From: Nitrospirota bacterium
GTDB taxonomy: Bacteria; Nitrospirota; JACRHL01
Direction: 5' to 3'
Assembly (NCBI GenBank): GCA_029881725.1
Contig: JAOUMB010000022.1
Location: forward strand, 1 to 42,585
DNA: 42,585 bases
The notes beneath the pieces were generated by a model. It saw only the letters and a program-made list of their open reading frames with translations, was not told where the DNA came from and did no database searches. A program made the position numbers and the translations under genes. Positions 3,621 through 33,945 of the stretch are shown here, piece after piece. The first letter of the stretch is position 1, and each line of letters begins with the position of its first letter.

Positions 3621-3850
3621 GATGGCGGCGTTTTCCGCCGAAAAGAATGGACGACATGAGACCTGTCTGTCCACCCGGTTCCCAACGCGGGGGCGGTTCG
3701 GGAGCATCCCGGGGGGAGAGCGGGGAAGGGTATGGGTACCAAAACCACCAGAACGGTTCCGCGCACGTGGCCGAAATCGCGCTTTTATGCCAAAATACGG
3801 CAATTGGCGTCCGTTTGGGGCGATGCTGACAGGCGGACCGGGAGAGCGTG

Positions 3851-5389
3851 ATGGGCAAGCACATCGTCATCCACAGCATTGGCTCGCTGGGCGACCTGTT
3901 TCCGTTTCTGCGCATCGGCAAGGCGCTTGCCGTGCGCGGGCACCGGGTCACCATCGCCACCCTGTCCCTGTATCAGGAGCGGGTGGAAAAGGCCGGGCTC
4001 GGCTTCCACAAAACCGGGCCGGAACTGCCGGAACTCACCCCGGAACTGGTGGAGGCCATCGCCGATCCGGTGTCCGGCGGCGAATACCTGCACCGCAAAC
4101 TGCTCTACCCCGCCATCGAGGAATGCTATGCCGACCTGATGGACGCGTGCCACGGGGCCGACCTGCTGGTGTCCGGCTCCATCGCCTATGCCGCGCCCAT
4201 CGTGGCGGCCATGACCGGCATCCGCTGGGTCTCCACCAACCTGCAACCGATGTTCATGTTTTCGGCCTACGATCCGCCGGTGCCGCCGCCCGCGCCGGGG
4301 CTGCGGCATCTGAAGAAAATGCTCGGCTCCATCTATGGCCGCTCGCTGAAAAAGCGCTTCCGCAAGGAGGCCAGCGGCTGGGCCGGACCCATCTACCGCC
4401 TGCGCGGCACCCTGGGCCTGCCCCGTGGCGGGGAGCCGATCACCGAGGCGGCCTATTCCCCGCTGCTGCATCTGGCCCTGTTTTCACCGCAGATCGGCAA
4501 GCGCCAGAAGGACTGGCCCAGAACCACCCGCCAGTGCGGATTTGTATTCGAGCCCGGCGCGCCCAAGGTGTTTGCCGACACCCCCCTGCCCGGCGACCTG
4601 GGCCGCTTCGAGATTCCCCCCGCCCCGCCCGAGCCCCGCGCCGGGGAGTATCGCGGCCAGACGGAAGGGGAGGAGCCGGCGCACGCCGGTTCTGCCGAGC
4701 CACATGCCGATGCCCATGTCGAGCCGCATGCCGAAGCGATGCGGGAGGTACTGGAGCCGGTTCCGGCCGACCATGGGCAACGGGTGGAGCATTTCATGTA
4801 TCAGGAGCAGCGGCCGTTGCTGTTCACCCTGGGCTCGTCGGCCACCTACATTGCGGGTGACTATTTCATCACCGCCATGGAAGCCGCCGAAGCGGTGGGG
4901 CGCAACGCCATTCTGATCGGCGACGATGCGGTGGCCAGCTGGCGGCTGGCGGGGGAGCCCACCCACGTGGCGGCGTTCGACTACCTGCCCTATGAAGACG
5001 TGTTCGGCCGCGCCTCGGTGATCGTCCATCAGGGCGGCATCGGCACCACCGCCGAGGCCCTGCGCGCGGGCGTGCCGCAACTGGTGGTGCCGTTCGGCTC
5101 CGATCAGTACGACAACGGCGAACGCATCAAACGCCTGGGGTGCGGCCTGTGGGTGGCGCGGGACGGGTTTGATCACCGGAACGCGCCCAAGCTGCTGGGG
5201 CAGATGCTAAACGAGACCCGCTACGCCACCGCCGCCCGCCAAACCGCCGAGGCCATCCGCGCCGAAGACGGGCTGAAGGAGGCGGTACTGGCCCTGGAGG
5301 GCCTGTTGAACCCCGATGCCCCGCAGACCGCGGTGCAGTCGAAGGTGAGCCCGGCGCCGACCCCGGAACCGGTGGGGACGGGCGGCTAA
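3851..5389 (+). CDS. UGT/MGT-like glycosyltransferase (GT1 type, GT-B fold)
   Basis: 512 residues. The N-terminal half opens with HIVIHSIGSLGDLFPFL, the glycine-rich first strand and loop of UGT/sterol-glucosyltransferase-like enzymes. The C-terminal nucleotide-sugar region (about 390-425) contains VIVHQGGIGTTAEAL and GVPQLVVPFGSDQ, the family signature with the HQGG motif. It probably moves a sugar from an NDP-sugar to a lipid or small hydrophobic acceptor; the acceptor is unknown. The ATG at 3851 has a GGGAGAG ribosome site 4-5 bases ahead; the adjacent GTG at 3848 is too close to that site. Residues about 270-316 form an unusual Glu/Ala/His-rich insert (EPHADAHV/EPHAEAMR repeat) between the two domains, which I do not expect in the family. 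No signal peptide is seen, so it is probably cytoplasmic or peripheral to the inner membrane. Confidence 0.88.
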   Translation: MGKHIVIHSIGSLGDLFPFLRIGKALAVRGHRVTIATLSLYQERVEKAGLGFHKTGPELPELTPELVEAIADPVSGGEYLHRKLLYPAIEECYADLMDACHGADLLVSGSIAYAAPIVAAMTGIRWVSTNLQPMFMFSAYDPPVPPPAPGLRHLKKMLGSIYGRSLKKRFRKEASGWAGPIYRLRGTLGLPRGGEPITEAAYSPLLHLALFSPQIGKRQKDWPRTTRQCGFVFEPGAPKVFADTPLPGDLGRFEIPPAPPEPRAGEYRGQTEGEEPAHAGSAEPHADAHVEPHAEAMREVLEPVPADHGQRVEHFMYQEQRPLLFTLGSSATYIAGDYFITAMEAAEAVGRNAILIGDDAVASWRLAGEPTHVAAFDYLPYEDVFGRASVIVHQGGIGTTAEALRAGVPQLVVPFGSDQYDNGERIKRLGCGLWVARDGFDHRNAPKLLGQMLNETRYATAARQTAEAIRAEDGLKEAVLALEGLLNPDAPQTAVQSKVSPAPTPEPVGTGG

Positions 5390-7532: not shown

Positions 7533-7955
7533 TCAGTCGCCGGGGGTAAATCCTTCGCCCAGGGCGGCATACAGCAGGGCGCGGATGTCGGCGACCTTTT
7601 CCGGGCTGTAGGCCACCGGCGGAAAGCTGCCCCACACCGGGCCGGGCCAGGCCGCATCGCCCGGATTGCGGGCCACATGGTGAACGTGCAGTTGCGGGAT
7701 GATGTTGCCCAGCGAGGCCACGTTCATCTTGTGCGCCGAGAACATCTCCGCCATCACCTCCGCCAGGTGACACGATTCGCGCATCAGCTGCTGGCGGTCG
7801 GCCTCGTTCAACTGGTGAATCTCCGTGATCCCCTCCCGCGACGGTACCAGAATGCACCAGGGGAAGCGGGCATCGTTCATCAGCAGCAGGATCGACAGGG
7901 GGAAGTTTCCCAGCCGGAAGCAATCGGAAGCGAGCCGTTCGTGAAGTTGGGTCAT
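7533..7955 (-). CDS. HIT-family nucleotide hydrolase
   Basis: 140 residues, a single histidine-triad domain. The catalytic segment is PQLHVHHVAR, with His90, His92 and His93. As in the QLHVH subfamily, the third canonical His position is hydrophobic (Val94). GNPGDAAWPGPVW-like sequence after the motif, here ARNPGDAAWPGPVWG, is typical of the proteobacterial subgroup. Family members cleave nucleotidyl phosphate or phosphoramidate bonds (AMP-lysine, Ap4A-like compounds); the exact substrate is unknown. The start at 7955 is preceded by AAAGG. It is cytoplasmic, a one-gene unit pointing into the nitroreductase stop. Confidence 0.88.
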   Translation of the reverse strand: MTQLHERLASDCFRLGNFPLSILLLMNDARFPWCILVPSREGITEIHQLNEADRQQLMRESCHLAEVMAEMFSAHKMNVASLGNIIPQLHVHHVARNPGDAAWPGPVWGSFPPVAYSPEKVADIRALLYAALGEGFTPGD

Positions 7956-8050: not shown

Positions 8051-8095
8051 AAAAAAAGCCGCCCGTCCCCCGGAAAAATCCGGAAAACGGGCGGC
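8051..8095 (-). terminator. Intrinsic terminator after the DUF4402 pilin
   Basis: On the minus strand a 9-bp G+C-rich stem (8087-8095 with 8058-8066) is followed directly by seven T (8051-8057). A small inner stem (8071-8074 with 8079-8082) stacks in the loop. It lies about 40 bases after the pilin stop codon at 8137 and ends the fimbrial locus. Confidence 0.85.
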
Positions 8096-8136
8096 CTGAT
8101 TCCTTACGCCCCGAATCCGCCGGGGCGCGCGGCTCG

Positions 8137-8649
8137 CTACTGGTACACCACGCGGAAGGTGGCCGCGCCGGAGTAGGCGCCGACGATGTCGGTGCCGTCC
8201 AGGGTGGCGGTGCCGCCCACGCGGATGTTGGTCAACTGGCCCAGGCCATCCAGGGTGGCGGTGCCGGTGCCGCCGCCGGCGTCGGTGGCGGAACCGCCGA
8301 ACACCCAGGTGGCGACCGGAATCTGCTCGCTGGGCAGCAGGCCCGCGCCGGTGGTCATGTTGATGCCCGCGGTCTCCACGATCGACAGGTTGACCGGGGC
8401 GGCGGCGGAGCCGGCGGTAATGTCGAAGGTGGCCGCGGTGGCGTCCGCCGGAGCCACCACAACGGTGGTGACCACACCGGCTTCGTAGTTGCCGAAGCCC
8501 AGGTCGGCGGTCTTGGTCACCGCCAGCGCGGTCAGGATGTTCATGGTGGCGTTGAACGCCGTGTCCAGCGCCTTGGCGGGGCTGGCGGCGAATACAACGG
8601 CGGTGGCCAGGGACACGGCCAGGGCGGTTTTTTTGCCATTAAAATTCAT
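8137..8649 (-). CDS. DUF4402-like fimbrial subunit A (probable major pilin)
   Basis: 170 residues, secreted. A Sec signal peptide (KK, then a hydrophobic Ala/Val core) ends at about Ala27 in ASPAKA. The mature protein is Ala/Thr/Gly-rich with alternating beta-strand character. It has the DUF4402 hallmarks: ALAVTKTADLGFGNY near the N-terminus, LPSEQIPVATWVFGGS in the middle, and the ending ATFRVVYQ, which fits a donor-strand/chaperone-capping C-terminus. GAGGAA lies 5 bases before the ATG at 8649. It follows the usher gene after a 188-base gap and has its own strong terminator, so separate high-level expression is plausible. The mature sequence has no Cys. It is paralogous to the subunit at 12822-13337, sharing the LPSEQIPV-TW-FGGS block. 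The major-pilin role is inferred. Confidence 0.8.
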   Translation of the reverse strand: MNFNGKKTALAVSLATAVVFAASPAKALDTAFNATMNILTALAVTKTADLGFGNYEAGVVTTVVVAPADATAATFDITAGSAAAPVNLSIVETAGINMTTGAGLLPSEQIPVATWVFGGSATDAGGGTGTATLDGLGQLTNIRVGGTATLDGTDIVGAYSGAATFRVVYQ

Positions 8650-8837
8650 GGTGGTTCCTCTACCTCGGTCCACATGTTTGGTGATGGTGGCGGCCAGATC
8701 CCCAGGTAACCGCCGTGACCCTGCAAGGTCTTCTGGTCTCTTTTCGGCAGGTTGTGGGTGATGGTTTAGTGACAATTTGCACCCGAAACGGGCGAATCCC
8801 CACTAAACACAAGCCGGACGGGGAGGGATGGGGGTGG

Positions 8838-11393
8838 TCAGTTCCCGGACGCGGGCCACGGCCAGACCAGGTTGCTCACCCAGTCGGTGCCCGGCTCCAG
8901 ATTCAGTTCCAGGGGCGGCGGGGGGGCGTCGGTGCCGGTGATCTCCAGAATGAAGCGCCCGCTGGTGAGCCCCTCCAGCAGGAAGAAGCCGTCGGACTCC
9001 ACCCGTCCCTCGCTGACCACGCTGCGGTCGCTTGCGCGCAGGGCCACCACCGCCAGCCCCTGCGGCACCCCGCCGGGCCGTTGCAGGAAGCCGTCCACCC
9101 CGGCGGTCCAGCTGAGCAGGGGGCTGTAATCCAGGTGCGTTCCCGGGCGGAAGCGCACCGCCAGGGCGTCGGTGGCGGCCACCATGGTGGCATCCAGCGA
9201 GCTGTTTTCCACCGTGATGTACATGCGTTCGTCGGGAACGATGCCGTGCACCACGTAGCGGCCGTCCTCGCCCGTCACCACCCGGTGGCGGCCCACGCGC
9301 ACCACCGCGCCGGGCATCGGTTGCGGGTCGGCCCCCGGAGTGGGGGGGATGTATACCGCGCCGGACATGGTGCCGGTACCGAACTCGTCCCACCGCTCCG
9401 GCCCCGGCTGGGGCGAGAGCACGTCGAGCCAGGTGAGGCGGATGCCGACGCCGTCGTTGCTGCCGGTGACACCGATGTGGAAGCGCCGCTTCCAGCGCCA
9501 GTTGAGCACGCCGTTCCACTGCACGCTGCCGCCGTCCGGCAGGTCCAGGGTGGCGGTGGCGTCCATCGGGTCTTCCCAGCGCCCCTGCAGGCGGAAGGTG
9601 GCGCGCCACAGCCCCCCGGTGGGTTGCCAGCGGCGCTGCACGTCGGCGCGCATTTCCGGGCCGGGGGAAAAGATGATCCCCGTGCCGCTGCTGTGGGTGC
9701 GGGCGGTCCCCAGCCCGGTGACCGCGGTTTCGCCGAACAGGGTGAAGCGGCGGTGCGCGTTCAGGTCCAGGCGGCTGTCCACCGAGCGATCGAGGGAGGT
9801 GTCGCTGTAGCGGGAGCGCCAGGAAATGCGGCTGATGCGCAGGGAGTGCTCCGCCCGCCACAATCGGGTGCCGATGGCCTCCTGCCCGGTCAGGCCGATC
9901 AGCGGGCTGCTGTCGTCCAGCCAGCGGCCGGTGAGGCGCAGGGTGTTGGCCTTGATCGCGCTCAGATCGGCGCTCATGCCGTGATCCATCCCCCGTGCCG
10001 AGGCCAGGGTGTCGGACAGGATGGTGAGCCCGTAAAACGGCCGCCAGGCCAGATCGGCCATGAGGCCCGGCGCGTTTTGGGAGCCCGGATGGGTGGGCAG
10101 GTGCAGGACGTGCAACCCGGCGGAAAAGGTGCGGTGAAACCCATAGCGCAGCCCGGCGTGGGCAAATCCCCCCAGCGGGGTTTCACCGGAGGCGGTGCGC
10201 CAGTCGGTCTCGCCCGCGTCAAGGATGGCGGCGTTGTCCCAGGCGATGCGGATGGTTTCCAGATCGGTGGAGCCGTCCGGGAAGTAGAAGCGCAGGGTAA
10301 AGCTATCCCCCCCGGCGACCAGACGCTCGGCCAGTTCATAGGTGCCGTCGGCCCCGGCCACCAGCGACTCCTCCAGAAAGCCGTTGCGATATACGTCGAT
10401 TTCGGTGCCCGGCTGGGTGCGGTCGCGCAGTTCAAAGCGCCCGGCGCCACGGGACTGGCGCTTGTGATCCACGCGCAGGCCGTTGTCCAGCGACAGGGCC
10501 GACATGAGGGTCATGGAGTTGAAGCGGGTATCGCCCACTTCCATCAGATAAAACTCCGGCAGGTTGGGAATCTGGTTGTGCAGGCGGCGGTAACGCCAGA
10601 AATTGACCTTCGCCTGCTCCACGCCTGCGGGGGCGTCCAGGTAATGGGCACCCACCAGCGCGGTTCCGCCCCACAGGTCGCTCCCCAGGTCGGCGGCCAG
10701 ATAGCGGGTATGCTTGCCGTCCGGGCTCCGGTCCCAGCGAGCCTGATAGCGCAGCTCGGTGCGGCCGTTCCATTCCGGCTGGGTGAGGGGAAGCGCCGCC
10801 AGCCGCGCGCGGCGCTGGTTTTCCGCCTGCATGCGGCTGCGGGCCAGTTCGCGCTGGTGTTTGACCTCCGACAGCAGCGGGAAGCGGGGGCGGAACTCCA
10901 GGGTGTAGGTAACCTTGTGCCAGGCGGTGGTCATCGGCATCCAGGCACTCCAGGCGTCGTAGCGCAGCCACAGGGCGCCCTCGTGCAGCACCAGTGCCGC
11001 CGGGTCCAGTTCCCGCGGGGGGGAGCCATTTTCGCCCATCTGGCCCGAACGGCCGTCGATCCAGAAGATCTTGCCCGTGGTGGGCATCAGAACCTGACAG
11101 TGCCGGGTTTCCGGGTTGCAGTCGGCGGCCATCTCCAGCCACTCTTCCAGCGACGCCACCAGCTCCAGATAGGGACGCTCGTCCCGATCCATCATGACCC
11201 GGTGAAAGGCGCTGCCCCGGTTGTGGGTGACCCGCAGTTCCAGAAACTCCTCCTCCAGCGCAACCGGTGGCGGAGGGGTGGCGGAACGGGCCGCCTGGGG
11301 GGCGGGGGTGTCCTGTGCGAACGCGGGTGCCCAGGCAAGCGCGAGCAGCAGTCCGGCCAGCAGGGGCCGAACAATGGGCCACCGGATCGGCAT
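8838..11393 (-). CDS. Divergent fimbrial outer-membrane usher
   Basis: 851 residues with a signal peptide ending in APAFA at 26. Residues about 45-190 resemble the N-terminal region of non-classical ushers (EEFLELRV, a Cys92/Cys99 pair, then VLHEGALWLRYDAWSAWMP). The central part has long runs of alternating hydrophobic/polar strands fit for a beta-barrel. A plug-like segment lies at about 325-375 (GTEIDVYRNGFLEESL ... DSFTLRFYFPDGS). The C-terminal about 150 residues look like carboxypeptidase-regulatory/usher C-terminal domains (PGAVVRVGRHRVVTGEDGRY). It would receive chaperone-subunit complexes and export the fibre. The start lies 9 bases after the chaperone stop codon, so the two are co-transcribed. 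Classical PapC/FimD signatures are weak, so the call rests on domain pattern plus neighbours. Confidence 0.75.
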   Translation of the reverse strand: MPIRWPIVRPLLAGLLLALAWAPAFAQDTPAPQAARSATPPPPVALEEEFLELRVTHNRGSAFHRVMMDRDERPYLELVASLEEWLEMAADCNPETRHCQVLMPTTGKIFWIDGRSGQMGENGSPPRELDPAALVLHEGALWLRYDAWSAWMPMTTAWHKVTYTLEFRPRFPLLSEVKHQRELARSRMQAENQRRARLAALPLTQPEWNGRTELRYQARWDRSPDGKHTRYLAADLGSDLWGGTALVGAHYLDAPAGVEQAKVNFWRYRRLHNQIPNLPEFYLMEVGDTRFNSMTLMSALSLDNGLRVDHKRQSRGAGRFELRDRTQPGTEIDVYRNGFLEESLVAGADGTYELAERLVAGGDSFTLRFYFPDGSTDLETIRIAWDNAAILDAGETDWRTASGETPLGGFAHAGLRYGFHRTFSAGLHVLHLPTHPGSQNAPGLMADLAWRPFYGLTILSDTLASARGMDHGMSADLSAIKANTLRLTGRWLDDSSPLIGLTGQEAIGTRLWRAEHSLRISRISWRSRYSDTSLDRSVDSRLDLNAHRRFTLFGETAVTGLGTARTHSSGTGIIFSPGPEMRADVQRRWQPTGGLWRATFRLQGRWEDPMDATATLDLPDGGSVQWNGVLNWRWKRRFHIGVTGSNDGVGIRLTWLDVLSPQPGPERWDEFGTGTMSGAVYIPPTPGADPQPMPGAVVRVGRHRVVTGEDGRYVVHGIVPDERMYITVENSSLDATMVAATDALAVRFRPGTHLDYSPLLSWTAGVDGFLQRPGGVPQGLAVVALRASDRSVVSEGRVESDGFFLLEGLTSGRFILEITGTDAPPPPLELNLEPGTDWVSNLVWPWPASGN

Positions 11394-11402
11394 GGAGAGC
11401 GG

Positions 11403-12230
11403 TCAGCCTTCCGGCGTGCAGATGGTGTTTCCGGACTGGCCGCCCATGGGGCCCGCCTGCCACTGCAACAGGAGGGGGCCGGGCGGAGGCTTGAGGCCAA
11501 TTACCGGCGTCGCCTTGCGCGATTCCCGGTAGAGCAGCACCGGCTGTTCGAACAGGGGGCGGGAATCGGGGGCGGCGGTCAGATCGGTGCCGGGGGGATA
11601 GGCGCGCACGGTGCCCTCGTAGCGCCAGATGGAGCGGTTGACCCCCACCAGTTCCAGCTCTCCCCCGGCGCCGATATGGCAGCCGAAGGTAATCTGGCCG
11701 TCGCGGCGGCCCCGGTGGCCATAAATGGCCACGGCGGTTTCCATTTTCAGGGTCAGGCGCATGGTAAGGGCTTCGTCCCCGCCGGTGGGGCCCATGTTAC
11801 GGGCCGGTTCCAGCATGCGCACCAGCAGGTGGGCGCGGTATTCGCCATCCGGCAGGTCGGCGGGGGGGCGCACCGAGGCGCGGATGTTGCGCCGCTCCCC
11901 CGGTTGCAGGCTGACCGTGCGCGGGCTCACCCGCAGCCAGGGGGTCATGTCATCCTGCACGGAAGCGGCCGCATCCAGCGGTTCCCCGGCCCGCAGGGAG
12001 GCGGAATCGACCTCGAAATAGATTGGTTCGATGGTGAGGCGGATGGCTCCATCCCCGTTATTGGTGAGGATGAATACCTGGGTGCGGGGACGGGTCAGGT
12101 CCATGTCCACCCGGCCCGGGGCGACCAGAAACGAATTCGCGGCCAGTGCCGGCATGGCGGTGCCAAGCAGCGATGCCAACAGCACGGCGGCCGTCGTCAG
12201 TGGGCGCGGGAATCTCCGTTGTGCGTGCAT
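11403..12230 (-). CDS. PapD-like periplasmic fimbrial chaperone
   Basis: 275 residues with a signal peptide ending at about Ala30 (AMPALA). The N-terminal Ig-like domain has the usual pattern: SFLVAPGRVDMDL with FILTNNGDGAIRLTIEP, then WLRVSPRTVSLQPGERRNIRASV and DGEYRAHLLVR. These correspond to the strands that hold pilin subunits. The second domain is less conserved, and the tail is longer than in PapD/FimC (about 230 residues). It should bind the DUF4402 subunits in the periplasm and hand them to the usher 9 bases downstream. AGAGGGATA precedes the ATG. It lies 70 bases after the end of the subunit-B gene, in the same operon. Confidence 0.85.
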   Translation of the reverse strand: MHAQRRFPRPLTTAAVLLASLLGTAMPALAANSFLVAPGRVDMDLTRPRTQVFILTNNGDGAIRLTIEPIYFEVDSASLRAGEPLDAAASVQDDMTPWLRVSPRTVSLQPGERRNIRASVRPPADLPDGEYRAHLLVRMLEPARNMGPTGGDEALTMRLTLKMETAVAIYGHRGRRDGQITFGCHIGAGGELELVGVNRSIWRYEGTVRAYPPGTDLTAAPDSRPLFEQPVLLYRESRKATPVIGLKPPPGPLLLQWQAGPMGGQSGNTICTPEG

Positions 12231-12300
12231 TATCCCTCTCCCTGGGTACCTGATTGTTCAGCCCCCACCGGGGACCGGCTGCCGCCGACTCGATTTCGTA

Positions 12301-12825
12301 TTACTGGTAAACCAGCCGGAAGGTCGCCATGCCGATGTAGCGGGCGACCGCGATTGAATTGTCCACCGGCGCCACGGCCACCACCTGCAGGTTGGGCAGC
12401 AGTCCGCTGTCGTTGAAGCGGGCGAGGCCGGAATCGCCCATGTCGCCACCCATGCGCCAGGCGATCACCGGCGCCCCGACGATCGCCCCCTGCTGCCATT
12501 CCAGCACCGGAATGCCGCGTACCATGCCGTTTGCGTCCACCCACTCCATCTGAACGTCCACCGATGGAATGCTGGCGATTACAAAGCTTCCCGGTTCGCC
12601 CCGCGCCGCGAACGTGGCCAGGCCGCTGGCCCGTGACGGGTCCCGCAGGGGCGGGGCGGAGGTCTTCAGGGTGAGGGCGGACGGGCCTGCCAGGCGGCTT
12701 GGCTCCACCAGATTCATGCCGGGAAGGGCATCCCCCAGCGGGGTCCAGCCCACGGACAGGGCTCCGGCCATCAAAAAGGCGGCCAGCGCTGTCACGCGGG
12801 TGGAGGGCGGCAAGGGGCGGTTCAC
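12301..12825 (-). CDS. DUF4402-like fimbrial subunit B (minor or tip candidate)
   Basis: 174 residues with a signal peptide of about 31 residues. It ends in ATFRLVYQ, the same C-terminal signature as subunit A, and has PNLQVVAVAPVD before it. The middle is diverged: no LPSEQIPV block, and a longer N-terminal extension rich in Ser/Pro/Arg. This suggests a specialised (minor, adaptor or tip) subunit rather than the shaft. The GTG start overlaps the stop codon of subunit C as GTGA (12822-12825), so translation is probably coupled. It belongs to the chaperone/usher operon. The family assignment comes from the C-terminal pattern and the context. Confidence 0.65.
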   Translation of the reverse strand: MNRPLPPSTRVTALAAFLMAGALSVGWTPLGDALPGMNLVEPSRLAGPSALTLKTSAPPLRDPSRASGLATFAARGEPGSFVIASIPSVDVQMEWVDANGMVRGIPVLEWQQGAIVGAPVIAWRMGGDMGDSGLARFNDSGLLPNLQVVAVAPVDNSIAVARYIGMATFRLVYQ

Positions 12826-13337
12826 AGGTACACCGCCCGCATGGTGGCGGAGCCCAGGTAGGCCCCCGGCACGTCATCAAAGGTGACATGGGCGCTGGCG
12901 CCCACGCGCATGTTGGTCAGCGTTCCCACGTTGGTGAAGTTGGCCTGCCCGGCGCCGCCCACATCCACCAGGGAGCCGCCAAAGGTCCAGGTATCCACCG
13001 GGATCTGCTCGCTAGGCAGGGTGCCGCCGCCGGTGGTCATGTTAATGGACACTTCGACCACGCTGACGTTGATCGTTTGCCCCTTCTGCCCGGCGGCGTC
13101 GAACACCGCCGCGGTGGGGTCCAGCGGGGCCACGATAAAGGTGGTGGTGAGTCCCTGCTCCGAGGGGGGAAACGACATCCCCTGGATCAGGGTGACGGCC
13201 AGCGCCCAGTGGTTTTTGGCATGAACGGGAAGGACGGAGCCCAGCAGCATCAGCAGCGCGCCGACGAGCGCCGCACCCGGGCGCACCACGCCAAACCGCG
13301 TGTTTCCCCAAGTGGATTGTGCCTGGCGGGTTCCCAT
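12822..13337 (-). CDS. DUF4402-like fimbrial subunit C
   Basis: 171 residues from the ATG at 13337, which gives a clean signal peptide (GALLMLLGSVLPVHA). The open frame continues upstream to 13442, but that extension is Arg-rich with no export signal. It carries NMTTGGGTLPSEQIPVDTW and FGGS, nearly identical to subunit A, so the two are recent paralogues by this block. It ends MRAVYL instead of the usual VYQ. It overlaps subunit B by four bases. It could be a second shaft subunit or an alternative major pilin. Confidence 0.7.
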   Translation of the reverse strand: MGTRQAQSTWGNTRFGVVRPGAALVGALLMLLGSVLPVHAKNHWALAVTLIQGMSFPPSEQGLTTTFIVAPLDPTAAVFDAAGQKGQTINVSVVEVSINMTTGGGTLPSEQIPVDTWTFGGSLVDVGGAGQANFTNVGTLTNMRVGASAHVTFDDVPGAYLGSATMRAVYL

Positions 13338-13638
13338 AGCGTCTCGTTGCGGACGGCGCGCCTTCCGTCCGGTTTCTGCACGACAATACCGGAAATCCGG
13401 CAGTTTGTCATGCGTTCGATGCCCTGATAACGGGCGCAACACACTGTAACGAGGGTGGAAATTTCAGTCGGCTCTCCGGCTGCAACCTTCCCCCCCGGGT
13501 ATTGCGGCCCATGTCCTCTCTTACCGTATCGGTTGCAACAGTCGAAAATTAAAGGAATCGTATGCGGACGTGACCAGCATACAAAAAACACCTCCGTTTG
13601 TGGCCGGATTCAGGCGCTGGCGGGTGCCCCCCAGGCCA
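13338..13638 (-). other. 301-base gap between fimbrial subunits D and C
   Basis: No gene is supported. A short A+T-rich part (13540-13590) contains, on the minus strand, a weak TCCG/CGGA stem followed by six T. That could attenuate transcription between subunit D and the rest of the operon. I see no strong promoter match. Confidence 0.3.
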
Positions 13639-14160
13639 TTACTGATAGGCGATGCGGAAGGTGATGGATCCGTACAGGGTGCTTCGCTCTTTGGACACGG
13701 TCACCGGCGTTTCCGTGGTCACGCGCAGGTCGGGCAGCCGGCCTTTGGTATCGAAGCGGGCGGTGCCGGAATCGGCCCGGTTTCCGGACAGTTGCCACTG
13801 TTCCAGGGAAATCGGCTCCCGGCCGTCCACGCCTTGGGGAAATGCGGAAAGCCGGGGGAGCGGGCCGCGTTGAAAGGGATGCGCATACAGGTCCGCGTCC
13901 GGCAGGCTTCCGGTGACCGGCATGCCCGGTTCCCCGGAAACGGAGAACACCGCCAGGGTGCGATCGTTCATGCGCAGGTCGGCCGCACCGGTGGCCGCCA
14001 CCTTACCGGTGGCGGCCACCAGAAACGGAGCCGAAATCTGCATGTTGGCCGAGAACCGGGCCTCCGCCGCCATACCGATCCCGCCGCCAACCTGAAGCAG
14101 AAGTCCGGCCAGCACCAGGGCCAGGCGTCCGGAAGCACGGGGTTGGGGATGGCTCACCAT
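13639..14160 (-). CDS. DUF4402-like fimbrial subunit D (first gene of the fimbrial operon)
   Basis: 173 residues from the ATG at 14160, which has AAGGAA upstream and starts a signal peptide (LALVLAGLLLQVGGGIGMAA). It ends SITFRIAYQ, the family C-terminal pattern, preceded by LPDLRVTTETPVTV. It has QISAPFLVAATGKVAATGAADLRM near the mature N-terminus, like the strand opening of DUF4402 proteins. It lacks the LPSEQIPV block of A and C, and like B it is a diverged paralogue. It is the most upstream gene of the locus, often the place of a minor subunit, but that is inference. Confidence 0.65.
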   Translation of the reverse strand: MVSHPQPRASGRLALVLAGLLLQVGGGIGMAAEARFSANMQISAPFLVAATGKVAATGAADLRMNDRTLAVFSVSGEPGMPVTGSLPDADLYAHPFQRGPLPRLSAFPQGVDGREPISLEQWQLSGNRADSGTARFDTKGRLPDLRVTTETPVTVSKERSTLYGSITFRIAYQ

Positions 14161-14241
14161 GGGCCGGATTCCTTGTTGGCACCGGGGGACAGCCTCGGGA
14201 TGACACGTCACACCCATTCAAAATCGGTCGAAGCACTGGTC

Positions 14242-14323: not shown

Positions 14324-14863
14324 TTAGCTGGCCGGCTTGAGATTCGGGAAACCGCTGTCCAGCGCCTTGTTCCACTGGGGGAGGCGCTCGGCCACGGCGG
14401 CGTTGCCCATCAGCGTGGAGGTATCGCCCTCCACAGTGGCCTTGGTAATCTTGTCGCCGGTGGCGATGGCGTTGACGATGGTCTGGTCGCCATCAGAGAC
14501 CACCTTGCCGAACACGGTATGGTTGCCATCCAGCCACGGGCACGGCACGTGGGTAATGAAGAACTGGCTGCCGTTGGTGCCTTTGCCCGCATTGGCCATG
14601 GACAGGATGCCGGGAGAACTGTGGCGCAGTTCGGCGCTGAACTCGTCCTCGAACTTGTAGCCGGGGCCGCCACGGCCGCTGCCTTCGGGGCAGCCACCCT
14701 GGATCATGAAGTCGTCAATCACCCGGTGAAAGGTCAGCCCGTCGTAGAAGCCGCGCTGGATCAGGTTGACGAAGTTACCGACCGTGATGGGGCATTTGTC
14801 GGCATACAGATCAATATGGATGGCGCCCTTGGTGGTTTCGAGGGTGACGCGAAGCTCGCTCAT
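14324..14863 (-). CDS. ppiB: Cyclophilin-type peptidyl-prolyl cis-trans isomerase
   Basis: 179 residues, no signal peptide, so cytoplasmic like PpiB. The catalytic segment [13 protein letters not shown] has Arg47; SQFFIT is at about 99-104, and [11 protein letters not shown] carries the cyclosporin-site Trp110. The N-terminal [26 protein letters not shown] is the standard bacterial form. It has about 20 extra C-terminal residues compared with E. coli PpiB (164 aa). AAGGAG lies 6 bases before the ATG. It has its own extended -10 promoter and a strong terminator, so it is a single-gene unit. Confidence 0.95.
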
Positions 14864-17182: not shown

Positions 17183-17524
17183 CCTTGGGAATGATGTGCA
17201 AGGGTAGCGCGGTCTTTTTCTTTCCCGTGGCGGGGGATGGGTCACCTCCGCCACGGAGCCGGGGTGGCTCCGCGGGTCAGGCCGGCGAGCATGGGCGATG
17301 AGGGCAGGCACGCTGCCTTTACAGGGCGCCGTTTCCGGTGATACGGTTCCGCTTCGGGACCGAAGCCTCCGGTTACCTGAAGATGCATTCCGGGGTGTGT
17401 TGGCAGCGCGCCCACTTGAAGCAAGCGGGCATTTTGTGTATTGCATCCGTCGCCAGAACGTGGCTGTTCGAAAAACTGGACTGGGCGGGATGTCCCGTCC
17501 CCGCCCCACTTCCGCTGTCTTCAC
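17183..17524 (+). promoter_or_regulatory. Leader region of the polytopic membrane protein gene
   Basis: This is the untranslated space between typA and the plus-strand gene at 17525. A candidate promoter is TTGAAG (17416-17421), 17 bases, TATTGC (17439-17444). Downstream, a 7-bp G+C stem GGGCGGG/CCCGCCC (17483-17489 with 17500-17506) ends 18 bases before the ATG and could affect translation initiation. No gene is seen in the rest. Confidence 0.35.
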
Positions 17525-19387
17525 ATGACAAGCGTCCTGCTCCTGTTTCTTCCCGGCGTCTGGCTGGGCGCCCTGGGCGTTTCGCTCAGGCTGGTAACCC
17601 GTCGTGATGTGGCCGTCCTGATTTCCGTGTCGCTCGGGCTGTCCGCCTGGTTGCTTGGCATTCATGTGGTGAGTCTGGCCCTGAGATCATTTTATCTGGG
17701 GCTGTGGTCCGCCACGCTGGCACTCGGTTGTGCGGGCTACGTGGTCTGGTATCGGGACCTCCGGCGGGTGCCCCGGAATTCCCATGGCGGGGAGGCACCC
17801 ACCCCTTTGTTTGGCAAGTGGGTATGGCGGGGGTGTTTGGCAAGTACGGTAATCATCGCCGTGCTGGTGGGGTTGGGCTGGGGAAACGACCAGCAATACG
17901 TCACGGGCCACCTGTCGGTGATCTCCCAGATGAACAACGGGGTGTATCCACCTCACTTCCTGCAGTTTCCACAGTTCGAATACCGCTACCACTATGGTGT
18001 GAACACGCTTTGCGCCGCTCTTTCCGCGATCCTGCACATGCCGGTGGATCTTACCGTGGACATGGTTGCGGTGCTGGCGTGGGCATACCTCTGGTTACTG
18101 CTCGCCGCCATGGGGGTTGCGATGTTCGGCGGCGGTGTTGCCGCGGCGTTGCTACCGGTTATGGTGACGTGCGCGGGAGGGACGCAGCCCTTTCTTTACC
18201 TGCTGCAGAATGCCTTCCATGGATCCGTTATCGAGGCACTCCTGGTGGCAGTCAATGTCGGCAAGGGGGGGGGCGGGCTGGTCTTTCATCACTTCTTCCA
18301 GCCACCGTTTATGCTGGGCATGGTCCTGATGTTCAGCGTGCTGGTTATCACTGCGTTCCGGCGCCGGGAGGAACGTCTGTATTTCCCGGTGGCCGCAGTT
18401 CTTTTTTTGGCGCTCGGGATTTCGCATATCGTCGTATTTCTGACGGTACTGGCCTGCTGGTTCACTTGGATGACGATTGAGGCGTGGCGATCCGGGCAGC
18501 GGGAATCGTTGCCGTGGATCGCGGGGAGTTTTTTGGGCATCGTGCTTCTGGTTTCCCAGATGCACGGATTTTTTGTTCCCGCTTACGATCCCGAGGCCGG
18601 AGTCCCGTTGGTCCCGAACCGGACGGCTGGCGACTTTGCGTTGTTGGCAACGAACCTGGGGATGTGGATGGGGCTTGTGTTTCCCGCACTCGGGGTGGCC
18701 GGGCTTTTGATCAACCGAAGTTGGCGGGTGTTCTGGTTGCTTTTGCTGGTGGGGTGCTGCGGGGTTTTGCTTTTTCTGCGCTATCCGCACACGTGGGACA
18801 TCGTCAAGTTTGCCGTGGTTGCTTCCATTGCCCTTGGGGTGGGGGTTGCGGCGTTGCTGTATCGCCTGCTGGGTTCCGGATATCGCTGGCGCGTGCCACT
18901 GGTCGGGGTGCTTGTGGTGGCGTGCGTGTTTTCCACCGCTTCCACCGTGGTGGCCAGCCTGGTCCTCCGTCACTACAGCGGGGAACCGCTCAAGTATTAC
19001 CGCATGAAAACGCTGGGTGGGGAACATCTGCTGGCGATGGAGTGGCTGCGCAAAAACGTGCCGGACGGACAGCTGATACTGATGGAGCCCGAACTCGCCC
19101 GTCGGTATAGCGTTTGGGGGGGGGTGGGAACACCGTGGGATGATATTGGGGAACTGCACGGCATACCACGGCAGGTTATCGACAGGCGGGAAGCGTTGAT
19201 GAGACGGCTTTCGATGAATCCGGACGATCATCTGGCCGAGGGGATTCGTTGGCTGCTGGTCACCGGAGAGCGGGACCGGGGCCTGGAAGCGATGGGTTCA
19301 CGCTGGGTACGTGCCGGAAGGGCGCGCCAGATTGCGCTGTCGGAGCGGATTACAGTCTTTGAGATCCTCCCGGCCAATCCGGAATAA
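17525..19387 (+). CDS. Polytopic membrane protein, GT-C glycosyltransferase-like
   Basis: 620 residues with about ten or more hydrophobic segments over the first about 475 residues, starting at residue 3, then a soluble C-terminal part of about 145 residues. The loop at about 140-155 (YPPHFLQFPQFEYRYHYGVN) resembles the Pro/aromatic lumenal loop of GT-C-type polyprenyl-phosphate-sugar transferases. The C-terminal EHLLAMEWLRKNVPDGQLILMEPE resembles the WLR-N-P motif that opens their soluble tail. I do not recognise a specific family, so the GT-C label is inference. The ATG at 17525 was chosen because the first membrane segment begins there, although no ribosome site is obvious; the frame is open upstream to 17441. 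Codon use is less G+C-biased than in neighbours, which may indicate transfer. Confidence 0.7.
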   Translation: MTSVLLLFLPGVWLGALGVSLRLVTRRDVAVLISVSLGLSAWLLGIHVVSLALRSFYLGLWSATLALGCAGYVVWYRDLRRVPRNSHGGEAPTPLFGKWVWRGCLASTVIIAVLVGLGWGNDQQYVTGHLSVISQMNNGVYPPHFLQFPQFEYRYHYGVNTLCAALSAILHMPVDLTVDMVAVLAWAYLWLLLAAMGVAMFGGGVAAALLPVMVTCAGGTQPFLYLLQNAFHGSVIEALLVAVNVGKGGGGLVFHHFFQPPFMLGMVLMFSVLVITAFRRREERLYFPVAAVLFLALGISHIVVFLTVLACWFTWMTIEAWRSGQRESLPWIAGSFLGIVLLVSQMHGFFVPAYDPEAGVPLVPNRTAGDFALLATNLGMWMGLVFPALGVAGLLINRSWRVFWLLLLVGCCGVLLFLRYPHTWDIVKFAVVASIALGVGVAALLYRLLGSGYRWRVPLVGVLVVACVFSTASTVVASLVLRHYSGEPLKYYRMKTLGGEHLLAMEWLRKNVPDGQLILMEPELARRYSVWGGVGTPWDDIGELHGIPRQVIDRREALMRRLSMNPDDHLAEGIRWLLVTGERDRGLEAMGSRWVRAGRARQIALSERITVFEILPANPE

Positions 19388-29709: not shown

Positions 29710-32700
29710 GTGGAAATGGAACGGGTGCGCCTGTCCCTGTTTCCGCCGTCGGTGAACCTGCACGGGGTGAAACTGCCTGCGGCGGGAAACACCTTTTCCG
29801 GGGGGGGCGTGGAACGGATACGGGTAAAGGTTTCCCCCTGGTCGCTTCTGGCGGGTGGTCTGCGCACCCTGGATGTGACCCTCTGGTCACCGACGCTGCG
29901 TCTTGAGGTGGAGGCTCCCGCACTTCCCGGTGTGGATCAGGAGGGCGCACCCGACAAGGCCGTGCGCCAGGGCCTTGCATCCAACCTGGGTGTGTTGGCC
30001 GGGCACCACTTGCGGGTGCTGGACGGCACCCTGCACATGGCTTCCCGCGGCAAGCAGGTGACGGTTTGGGGGGTGGAGGTGGAAACCGAGCCGGATGTCA
30101 CGCTGCGCTATCTGAACCTGATGGTTTCCACGGGAGTGGTGCAGGTGGGTAACACGGAGTTGCTGTCCATGGCGTCCCTGGAGGGGGCCCTGGATTCCGA
30201 GCGGCTGCGGGTGGCGAAGGCCCGCTTTGAGGCGCTGGCGGGGAACCTGGAAATGTCGGGTGAGGTGCGGATGGAAGCGCAGTTGGTGGCCGCCCTGCGC
30301 ACCCTCTACGATGGCCGTATGCAGGGAGCCGCCGCGCTGGTGCGGCGTTTCGGGATCAACGCCCCGGAGGTGACGGGAACGGTGCACGCCGAGGGACGTC
30401 TGTATGGGAATGTGGATGACCTGCACTGGGACGGGGAACTGAAGGGCGCCGATCTGCAACTGGAGGACGACCCGCACCGGTTGCCCAGCGCCGAAATGCG
30501 CCTGCGGCTGTCCCGCGCCCGGGTGGAGGTGGTGCATGCCCGTGCCTCCGTGGGGGAGGGGGAAGTGCGCGCGAAGGGGGGGCTGGCGCTGGATGGGCCA
30601 CCGGAGTATGACCTGGATGGTTCGCTGGATAATGTGTCCGTGGCGTGGCTGGGCGCGGACGATCTGCTACCCGGCACAATGGGGGGCGATTTTCGGGTGC
30701 GAGGTACCCGCGGGGAGCGGCTTCAGGCAACTGGAGACTGGCGGTTTGAAAACGGTGGCCAGGAGGATTTGTCGGCTTCCGATCCGGTCTGGCGTCGAAT
30801 CCTGGCGCGGCTGACCCGCGCCAGCGGACACACGGAGATCGCTCCGGACGGAGGCCAGCGGCATACGGTGCATCTGGTCACCGGCAAAACCGATTTGCAC
30901 GCCAAGGGGGAGATGTCACCCGGCCGCCAGCTGAATGGCCATTTCAATTTTCAGACCTCCGACTTTGCCGACCTGGGGGAGTTGTTTGGTCTGCCCTATG
31001 TGCATGGCACCACCATGGGGGAGGGGGTGCTGAGCGGTACCCGGGATGATTTCCGCCTCACCTACCGTTCGGTCATGGAGGGGGGGCGAGCGAAGAATCT
31101 GGTTTTGGGCCGGGTGACCGCGGACATGGTACTGACACCGGAAAAGCTGACGATACGTCACCTGAATGCGGACGGGGACGGCCGCATCCGTCTGGACGGG
31201 GAGGTCCGCATCCCCCCCAAGGGCCAGCCCGCTTCCGAACTGGGTGTCAACCTTGCCGCCAGTCTGGACCACGTGCCGCTGACACCTCTGGCAGAGCTGT
31301 TTTACACCGGGGAGGACCCGCTGGAGACCGACTTTCCGGTTACCGGTGATGTGCACGTAATCAATTCCCGCCAGAGTCTGGCGGCCTGGAGCCTGTTGAC
31401 CGGCGGCGCAGGTACTTTTTACGGGCAGGACATCTCCGACGCCCGTGCCGACGTGTGGATTGATCACAAGGGCATGAAGGTGAAAAATGCCCGGTTCGGC
31501 ATCCCCTCCGGCACCCGCCGCGCCGAAGTGACCGGCGATGCCGCCATCGAATGGGAGCGTGAGCGTTTTGAGGTGAGCATGCAAAGCGCCGGGCTGCCGG
31601 TGCAGTCCACGAACCTGTTCCAGGAGAACGCGCCATACATGGACGGCACCTACATGGGCGATGCGCACCTGTCCGGCGACTTCGAGGCGGCCATCCTCAC
31701 CGCGCGCGGACGGGTGCGCGATTTCACCCTGGGCGGAATGCCGGTGGGCGATGGCGACGTGGATGTGGTCATGTCGCCCTGGTGGCAGCTGCGGGTGCGC
31801 GCCACCCTGGACGGGGAAGGCGGGGCGGACAATCCGGCCAAGGCCGCCTGGGTGAATTATTACGCCATGCTCGACCGGCATTACCCGTTCCACCTGGCCA
31901 CGCGCATCGGCGGGCGGCTGCCGATGGTGCCCTGGTTGCGGGAATTTGTGCCCGATGCCGATGCGTCCTTCCGCGAGCAACTGGGTGAGGATTATCGCAT
32001 GTTTGCCACCGGCAGAGCCGCCATGAGTGGCACCGTGGACGAAGGCGCCACCCATGCGGTGGGGCGCTTTACCCGCTTCGATGTGGAGACGGGTGAACTG
32101 GTCGCCTCCCTGACCGCTCCGGTGGTGGCCCGCCTGGAGGACAACCACCTGTCTACCGAGCCGATGACCCTGGTGGGGGATGGGCTCACCCTGGCCGTTT
32201 CCGGTGGAATGACCCTGGACGAGAGCTTTGACCTGTATGCCAGGGGCGTGGTGGAGGGTCCCTGGTTTCGCCAACTGAAGCCCGACTGGGGAGTGATCTC
32301 CGGAGAAACCTCGTTTGACGTCCACGTGTATGACGACTGGGTGCTGACCCGTGTCAAGGGCTTCGCCTATCCCAACGCCATGCAGGCGACTCCGGTGGAC
32401 ATGCTGCCGCCGTTCGCGGCCATCACCGTCACCGGGCAGGTGGAGATGGATGGGCCGTTGGAGGATCCCATGCGTGGGGACGTGGATGCGCGTCTCGGAC
32501 CGGTGGCGCTGACCGTATTTGGAAGCGCACTCACCGCTCCCCAGGCCCGGGTGAAGTCCGTAAACGGAGTGTATCTGGCCGACCCGGTGGAGTTGACCGG
32601 CCCCATGGGCCAATTGCGGGTGGAAGGGGGGTGGGAGTATGAGAAGTCGGTGCAACTCAAAGCCGTGGGAAGCCTGGATCTGGCCCGTTTGACTGCCGGG

Positions 32701-33945
32701 GTGGACGGTCTGGAGCAGGGCGTGGGGACGATTCAGGTCACCATGGAGCAGACCGGCGGTTGGGATATCTCTGTCTACCGGGGGGGCGCCACCCTCGAAA
32801 AAGGCCGGGTTCACGTGGATGCCCTGGGTCAAACGTTGCAAGTGGACTTTGCCAGCGTGCTGGTGGACGACACCCGGATTCTGATCGACACCCTGGAGGC
32901 CCGCATGGGTGGCGGCACCCTCACCGCGCAGGGGGTATTCGATACCGCCACCCTGGATGGGCGCCTGCTGGTGGAGGTGGACCAATACACCGTGCAGCCG
33001 GTGGCGGGCTTGAGCGCCACCGTGGGCGGGCAATTCATCCTGGAGGGAAAATATCCCGCTCCCACCCTGTCAGGGGACGTGCGCGTCCATAAGGCTTTGT
33101 ACGATCGCAGCATGCAGTGGGGGGACTGGATGGCCAGCGGCGCGGGAGAGCAACTGGAAGAGAGCGGTCCCCTGGGCGATACCCGGCTGGCGGTGCATGT
33201 CTATGGTGATCGCAACCTGTTTGTGGACAACAACCTGGCCGAAATGGCGCTGGACATGGACCTGATGATCGGCGGAACCGTTGCGTCCCCGTCATTGCTT
33301 GGTCAGGTGGACAGCCGGGGCGGCACGGTGAAGTACCGGGAGCACGTTTTTGAGGTGCAACGGGCGTCGGTGGAATTTGTCACCGAAGGGGCGGTGGACC
33401 CGTACCTGGATATGGTGGCGCGCACCACCGTACAACACGCTTTGCCGGACAACCCGCTAAACACCGAGCCGATTGAGGTGGAGGTGACCCTGTCCGGTCG
33501 GGTGGAGGACCAGATGGACCTGACCCTTACCAGCCGCCCGGAGTTACCGCAGGCGGATCTGATCTCGCTGTTGGCGGTCGGCATGACCGCTGACGAGTTG
33601 ACCGATTCGGGGGCTCAGACCGGCCTCACCGAGGCCATTTCACTGGCCACCGGTCCGATGCAGGCGGAATTGCAGCAGCAGTTGCACCGGATTGCGGGGA
33701 TCGACCGCTTCCAGGTGGATCCGTTTTACGACGATGCCTCGGCCAGTTCCAGCGCCCGGGTAACGGTGGGAAAGAGCCTGTTTGATTCCCAGGCACAGAT
33801 CACCTACAGCACCGTGCTGGATGCCACCCAGGAGCCGATCATCCAGTTTAGTTACCGGCTGGGACCGCGCATGTCGCTGATGCTGGAACAGGATGAGGAA
33901 GGGCGGCGCGGCGGGGAAGTGCGCTTTCGGGTGCGTTTTCGCTAA
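29710..33945 (+). CDS. tamB: TamB, translocation and assembly module (DUF490)
   Basis: 1411 residues in the open frame from GTG 29710; the restored protein (from 29570) would be about 1458. An AsmA/TamB-like inner-membrane-anchored bridge of long beta-groove repeats that works with an Omp85 partner and in lipid transport to the outer membrane. The N-terminal VEMERVRLSLFPPSVNLHGVKLP is AsmA-like. The C-terminal DUF490 region is clear: ILEGKYPAPTLSGDV, GQVDSRGGTVKYREHVFEVQRASVEF, LTLTSRPELPQADLISLLAVG and the GKSLFDSQAQITYS strand region. The anchor is out of frame just upstream. The stop codon touches the tamA ATG with no gap. Confidence 0.93.
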   Translation: MEMERVRLSLFPPSVNLHGVKLPAAGNTFSGGGVERIRVKVSPWSLLAGGLRTLDVTLWSPTLRLEVEAPALPGVDQEGAPDKAVRQGLASNLGVLAGHHLRVLDGTLHMASRGKQVTVWGVEVETEPDVTLRYLNLMVSTGVVQVGNTELLSMASLEGALDSERLRVAKARFEALAGNLEMSGEVRMEAQLVAALRTLYDGRMQGAAALVRRFGINAPEVTGTVHAEGRLYGNVDDLHWDGELKGADLQLEDDPHRLPSAEMRLRLSRARVEVVHARASVGEGEVRAKGGLALDGPPEYDLDGSLDNVSVAWLGADDLLPGTMGGDFRVRGTRGERLQATGDWRFENGGQEDLSASDPVWRRILARLTRASGHTEIAPDGGQRHTVHLVTGKTDLHAKGEMSPGRQLNGHFNFQTSDFADLGELFGLPYVHGTTMGEGVLSGTRDDFRLTYRSVMEGGRAKNLVLGRVTADMVLTPEKLTIRHLNADGDGRIRLDGEVRIPPKGQPASELGVNLAASLDHVPLTPLAELFYTGEDPLETDFPVTGDVHVINSRQSLAAWSLLTGGAGTFYGQDISDARADVWIDHKGMKVKNARFGIPSGTRRAEVTGDAAIEWERERFEVSMQSAGLPVQSTNLFQENAPYMDGTYMGDAHLSGDFEAAILTARGRVRDFTLGGMPVGDGDVDVVMSPWWQLRVRATLDGEGGADNPAKAAWVNYYAMLDRHYPFHLATRIGGRLPMVPWLREFVPDADASFREQLGEDYRMFATGRAAMSGTVDEGATHAVGRFTRFDVETGELVASLTAPVVARLEDNHLSTEPMTLVGDGLTLAVSGGMTLDESFDLYARGVVEGPWFRQLKPDWGVISGETSFDVHVYDDWVLTRVKGFAYPNAMQATPVDMLPPFAAITVTGQVEMDGPLEDPMRGDVDARLGPVALTVFGSALTAPQARVKSVNGVYLADPVELTGPMGQLRVEGGWEYEKSVQLKAVGSLDLARLTAGVDGLEQGVGTIQVTMEQTGGWDISVYRGGATLEKGRVHVDALGQTLQVDFASVLVDDTRILIDTLEARMGGGTLTAQGVFDTATLDGRLLVEVDQYTVQPVAGLSATVGGQFILEGKYPAPTLSGDVRVHKALYDRSMQWGDWMASGAGEQLEESGPLGDTRLAVHVYGDRNLFVDNNLAEMALDMDLMIGGTVASPSLLGQVDSRGGTVKYREHVFEVQRASVEFVTEGAVDPYLDMVARTTVQHALPDNPLNTEPIEVEVTLSGRVEDQMDLTLTSRPELPQADLISLLAVGMTADELTDSGAQTGLTEAISLATGPMQAELQQQLHRIAGIDRFQVDPFYDDASASSSARVTVGKSLFDSQAQITYSTVLDATQEPIIQFSYRLGPRMSLMLEQDEEGRRGGEVRFRVRFR

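Follow-up and report, generated by a model that had tools for sequence, protein, structure and literature searches.

A probable chaperone-usher fibre locus with DUF4402-type subunits, related to archaic systems, in a Nitrospirota bacterium

We analyzed a window of 42,585 nucleotides (hereafter, "the window" means this whole stretch of DNA) from a Nitrospirota genome assembly of 2.96 Mb in 126 contigs. Between a HIT gene (7533-7955) and a cyclophilin gene (14324-14863), the window carries a minus-strand operon of six ORFs, all intact, in the order D, C, B, chaperone, usher, A. This inventory agrees with an earlier note on this DNA, which had described four pilin paralogues with a chaperone and a usher. 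The features of the locus are as follows:

13639..14160, minus strand: subunit D, a secreted DUF4402-like pilin with an N-terminal extension (AEARFSANMQIS); the ORF opens at 14217.
12822..13337, minus strand: subunit C, above the DUF4402 cut-off, without N-terminal extension (predicted cleavage between HA and KNHWALAVT); the ORF opens at 13442.
12301..12825, minus strand: subunit B, DUF4402-type by alignment only, with the C-terminus FRLVYQ.
11403..12230, minus strand: periplasmic PapD-like chaperone of the non-classical type (Pro103, Arg132).
8838..11393, minus strand: usher-like outer-membrane protein of 851 aa, with a plug-like stretch at ~320-385 and carboxypeptidase-regulatory/SdrD-like C-terminal domains at ~675-850.
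8137..8649, minus strand: subunit A, DUF4402-like, with an N-terminal extension; the ORF opens at 8775.
8056..8097, minus strand: strong terminator-like hairpin behind subunit A (19 pairs, T-tail).

The genes for B and C share 4 bp (GTGA), the chaperone and usher genes are 9 bp apart, and A lies 188 bp behind the usher. Because a strong hairpin stands 3' of subunit A, the operon probably ends there. The ORF openings of A (8775) and D (14217) are mechanical starts. The most likely start of A is ATG 8649, which is preceded by a purine-rich ribosome-binding stretch and opens a signal peptide, MNFNGKK...AKA, with LDTAF as the beginning of the mature protein; that of D is most likely ATG 14160, where the earlier note had ended the locus. 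Signal-peptide cleavage sites were assigned by eye and with a simple rule.

Three other regions of the window, all on the plus strand, are of separate interest. At 29710-36726, a TamB protein (PF04357, 5.3e-39) and, immediately after it, a POTRA-containing Omp85 protein (PF01103, 3.1e-52) form a TamAB-like pair; in E. coli, TAM assists usher insertion. A UDP-glycosyltransferase-like protein (3848-5389; EryCIII-like, 2.6e-17) contains an internal His/Glu-rich stretch (EPAHAGSAEPHADAHVEPHAEAM). A hydrophobic protein of 648 aa without a Pfam family (17441-19387) is kept beside typA in a sister metagenome-assembled genome (MAG; L011 14524-16437).

The four subunits are paralogues that share a W.FGG-type block and an FR.xY[QL]-type C-terminus. 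In Pfam, DUF4402 (PF14352) matches C at 27.2 bits against a cut-off of 25.2, reaches A (0.0083) and D (0.012) below the cut-off, and gives no match to B; it matches 17 of the 20 members of the aligned subunit set. At E<=0.1, SCPU (PF05229) matches neither the window's subunits nor any member of the aligned set. One SCPU pilin of another Nitrospirota genome (SCPU 4.6e-24) also matches DUF4402 at 0.0038 (profile 21-129 of 129) and Fimbrial at 0.0027, in both cases along most of the protein, and this overlap of three families on one pilin links DUF4402 weakly to pilins. A phylum-wide DUF4402 search returned weak matches in four other genomes, two of them (G208, G379) next to a chaperone-usher chaperone.

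Classical pilins carry a "penultimate tyrosine" motif, on which we found no papers in the literature searched. Among 25 subunit C-termini of the system, 16 have Gly at -14 and 19 have Tyr at -2, the same as in FimA/F/G/I, whereas four of the five archaic subunits compared end on the aromatic residue itself. An AF2 model of mature A, built from 7 sequences, is all-beta (pLDDT 70, pTM 0.66), and its residues 1-13 are disordered (pLDDT <50), matching the expectation for a free donor strand. A fold search with this model found no PDB match at E<=0.001; the best TM-scores among the matches listed, 0.35-0.38 and not significant, belong to fimbrial subunits (5n2b, DraE, AfaE). The subunit HMM could not tell known pilins apart from shuffled decoys and did not find EcpA.

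When the mature subunits are aligned, C and its orthologue open with KNHW, immediately ahead of the first conserved strand. About nine additional N-terminal residues with an alternating pattern (e.g., LDTAFNATMNI) are present in A, D and the sister MAG's B; the extension of the window's B is slightly shorter. A subunit with no obvious extension also occurs in Vibrio campbellii (P0028) and, judged by eye, perhaps in Polaromonas JS666 and Pseudoalteromonas. In chaperone-usher assembly, a subunit without a donor extension can only be the first, at the tip, so the missing extension makes C the candidate for the tip or first subunit. Subunit A is likely the major, repeating shaft unit.

A different mark of subunit roles had been proposed in the earlier note, which observed that an LPSEQIPV block is present in A and C and lacking in B and D, and took this split for a division between shaft and minor or tip subunits. 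The observation is correct, as the block is common to A and C alone in the window. Its interpretation did not hold, because the orthologues do not keep the block: at this position the sister MAG has LGATQQIPV in A and TPATQILV in C. We consider the N-terminus the better signal of role. In the block, the window's A and C are 75% alike in amino acids (72% in nucleotides), versus 52% and 50% in amino acids to their own orthologues, and this greater mutual likeness points to local A-C homogenisation. Gene conversion is possible across the NMTTG-LPSEQIPV-W-FGG block of A (8137-8649) and C (12822-13337).

Taken singly, the proteins of the window all fall short of the cut-offs for the PapD and Usher families; in Pfam, PapD does not match the chaperone at all, and NCBIfam gives no match for the locus proteins. 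As neither chaperone nor usher is recognized by Pfam or NCBIfam, we took their identities from relatives. Against P0015, a genuine PapD_N chaperone (PapD_N 2e-17), the window's chaperone scores E=5e-7 in hhalign, and PapD_N itself matches six of the 12 members of the chaperone family (best 2.7e-8). With the chaperone-family HMM, two archaic chaperones score 8.1e-21 and 1.9e-15, against 0.088 for the best shuffled decoy; EcpE (0.19) and FimC (1.1) are weaker, and EcpB is not above decoys. Among solved structures, the chaperone profile matches the pili-assembly chaperone 4ncd at 7.5e-5 and CfaA at 0.013. A PapD-like periplasmic chaperone is thus encoded together with the subunits. Ubiquitin matches of the chaperone in phmmer were judged repeat artefacts, as no stretch was significant alone. 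The chaperone profile (A7) also matches the Enterococcus WxL-interacting protein EfmWxLIP1 (9i25, 9i1y) at 1.2e-4, about as well as the solved pilus chaperone, and PapD-like chaperones may be distantly connected to the WxL systems of Gram-positive bacteria.

According to Pakharukova et al. (PMC4654587), one proline is invariant in the chaperone superfamily, and what most characterises the non-classical members is an arginine that binds the C-terminus of the subunit, Arg89 in CsuC/EcpB. The invariant Pro (Pro103 in the window) aligns in all chaperones of our set. The Arg (Arg132 in the window) aligns in 11 of the 12 and shares its column with the Arg of EcpB, EcpE and the archaic controls; FimC lacks it. 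By this signature, which speaks to type and is not proof of mechanism, the chaperone is non-classical. A Tyr (Y234) and an Arg (R203) of domain 2, where the alignment is uncertain, may be the partners of Arg132.

Searches of Pfam, NCBIfam and the PDB returned nothing for the usher except its C-terminal domains; its only Pfam score is a carboxypeptidase-regulatory-like domain at the C-terminus, just under the cut-off, and the only PDB matches of its profile, with no solved usher among them, are SdrD-like and NOMO matches to these domains. PF00577 has no match anywhere in the host genome. An HMM of 11 usher-like proteins nevertheless matches the archaic ushers of two loci, at 1.7e-13 (L014, P0016) and 8.9e-8 (L013), against a best decoy of 0.12 (100 shuffled sequences per protein plus reversed ones); FimD and EcpC were not found. 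The archaic usher controls include a PF00577 protein (E=2.9e-32). Homology to outer-membrane ushers of PF00577 is therefore found through the profile of archaic ushers and fails at the Pfam cut-off, which none of the 12 ushers in our alignment (A9) reaches, two of them matching weakly (best 0.0014). The usher had been called divergent in the earlier note, rightly, though family models do not reveal it. Carboxypeptidase-regulatory domains are present in all 12 aligned ushers and SdrD_B in nine. By eye, a block at residues ~320-385 ("DVYRNGFLEESLVAGADGTYELAERLVAGGDSFTLRFYFPDG") resembles the archaic plug. The AF2 model of the usher, built from two sequences, is unusable (pLDDT 35).

The cassette recurs in other genomes. 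In the sister MAG, a Nitrospirota genome of the same family (G003; Nitrospirota bacterium isolate 4_1_July_SF_Bin45, contig JAOUFN010000006), C, B, chaperone, usher and A keep this order and are likewise flanked by the HIT and cyclophilin genes; subunit D is absent from that locus. Two further genomes of the family (G001, G002) show no match, and a usher of the window's type is present in 2 of 396 Nitrospirota genomes. Of two contig scans with the single usher, the first found no relative and the second the sister MAG only. Tblastn against plasmid records located the cassette in Vibrio parahaemolyticus, V. vulnificus and V. campbellii, and searches seeded with relatives added two Pseudoalteromonas, Sphingopyxis, two Novosphingobium and two Polaromonas, so that it spans Nitrospirota and Alpha-, Beta- and Gammaproteobacteria. 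These relatives have one to three small subunits, then a PapD-like chaperone, then a usher-like protein. A third locus type with one subunit occurs in two more Nitrospirota (G026, G351), and the G026 subunit has no Pfam match. The usher search also gave a match in G101; weak usher matches in three other genomes (G064, G158, G314; L023-L025) were rejected, since no chaperone is adjacent.

Some relatives merit comment in their own right. The third-type loci (L012 544-7101, L053 2562-7120) encode an unnamed subunit, a chaperone and a usher-like protein of 1013-1062 aa, followed in L012 by a protein with beta-propeller-like and GND-type repeats. In Novosphingobium THN1 (L038 2663-6583), the first call of the usher ORF gives 1306 aa, of which ~400 are extra residues at the N-terminus, and its start may lie further in. 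Both Polaromonas cassettes (L036, L037) are plasmid-borne with IS6-family transposases nearby, which suggests that the system may be mobile.

The relatives are currently annotated as "DUF4402", "hypothetical", "molecular chaperone" or "carboxypeptidase regulatory-like", and one chaperone only is named fimbrial. Searches with "DUF4402" and related terms yielded no description of such loci in the literature covered, outside which most subscription journals lay. The earlier note had suspected an undescribed fibre, and the homologous loci that we found are indeed uncharacterized in that literature. With key parts annotated as "hypothetical" or "DUF4402", it seems that a pilus type of wide distribution has escaped notice.

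With good confidence, we read the locus from its sequence as encoding all parts of a chaperone-usher fibre system, one that belongs to a divergent, unnamed lineage akin to the archaic (sigma) systems. Very probably it is a working system that stands nearest the archaic rather than the "alternative" (alpha) class. Its four subunits, presumably incomplete Ig folds, would reach the periplasm via Sec, where the chaperone would capture each by donor-strand complementation, Arg132 and its partner residues in domain 2 clamping the subunit C-terminus. The usher, presumably a 24-strand barrel with a plug in the outer membrane, would receive the chaperone-subunit complexes and thread the subunits outward by donor-strand exchange. 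C, which lacks an N-terminal donor strand, would go first as the tip, and A, B and D would follow, each extension plugged into the preceding subunit and A likely repeating along the shaft. The resulting polymer may serve in adhesion.

How far this lineage stands from the archaic class is a matter of classification, as the mechanism would be the same if the locus were an extremely divergent archaic system and DUF4402 a far branch of SCPU. We rate this at a little under an even chance. The HMM links of usher and chaperone to archaic proteins agree with it, as does the SCPU-DUF4402-Fimbrial overlap. In the chaperone tree, moreover, the 13 chaperones of the system group at a support of only 58/59, with firmer sub-lineages inside (window, sister MAG and Vibrio, 100/100; a proteobacterial group, 99/99; G026 and G351, 99/99). 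Such a placement has to contend with the failure of all 12 ushers at the PF00577 cut-off, with the CarboxypepD_reg-type C-terminal domains that all 12 carry, and with subunits that mostly end, classical-like, on Tyr(-2) plus one residue.

A chaperone-usher-derived exporter could instead make a thin capsule-like surface coat or short linkers and no pilus, which we think unlikely. Sphingopyxis (L030), G026 and G351 do have a single subunit, and none of the loci has an obvious two-domain adhesin; most loci, however, pair one extension-bearing subunit with others, some lacking an extension, as in polymerising systems. That the large protein is no usher but an unrelated protein of the outer membrane or surface that bears SdrD/carboxypeptidase-regulatory domains, and that the DUF4402 proteins leave by another route, is very improbable: its notable curated and PDB matches are to the SdrD-like domains only and its AF2 model is poor, but its profile likeness to archaic ushers beats all decoys, relatives match PF00577 weakly, and a PapD-like chaperone is linked in every locus examined.

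Within the reading of the locus as a chaperone-usher fibre system, we tentatively raise a further proposal, which we doubt more than we believe: a fourth class beside the classical, alternative and archaic ones, defined by DUF4402 pilins whose C-terminal strand has the classical length, together with a non-classical chaperone and an SdrD/carboxypeptidase-regulatory-like usher C-terminus, and with at least three sub-lineages in Nitrospirota and Alpha-, Beta- and Gammaproteobacteria. If the reading as a chaperone-usher fibre system is right, DUF4402, a domain of unknown function, would be a pilin family, and widespread "hypothetical" or "carboxypeptidase regulatory-like" outer-membrane proteins would join the chaperone-usher machinery as ushers, which surveys of secretion systems based on PF00577 would have missed. 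Pairing a non-classical chaperone with subunits whose C-terminus has the classical length, the system would also be a test of the generality of the two known carboxylate-anchoring modes.

Compared with known systems, the locus shares with the classical (Fim/Pap) class its operon logic and the Gly(-14)...Tyr(-2) pattern of the subunit C-terminus. It differs in a chaperone without the G1-strand Lys and with the Arg missing from FimC, and its usher and chaperone HMMs do not match FimD and FimC, bearing out the earlier view that it is unlike Fim/Pap. The same note had called the system an alternative chaperone-usher one; chaperone-usher stands, "alternative" is imprecise. With the alpha class (ECP, CFA/I, CS1, Tcf) the locus shares the non-classical Arg of the chaperone (EcpB, EcpE) and the weak chaperone-profile match to CfaA; archaic proteins rise above decoys, whereas EcpC, EcpB and EcpE do not, and EcpA is missed by the subunit HMM. 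One relative's usher has a weak CooC_C score (0.0012), which we rejected as an alpha-class mark because it also appears in unrelated genomes. The likeness to the archaic class (sigma; Csu/CupE type, SCPU pilins) extends to the gene set, to usher and chaperone that are homologous by HMM, and to a chaperone with the non-classical Arg (CsuC Arg89) and the invariant Pro and without the classical G1 Lys. The differences from it are subunits of DUF4402 rather than SCPU type, with a C-terminus one residue longer and a penultimate Tyr, and a usher below the PF00577 cut-off with CarboxypepD_reg/SdrD_B-type C-terminal domains.
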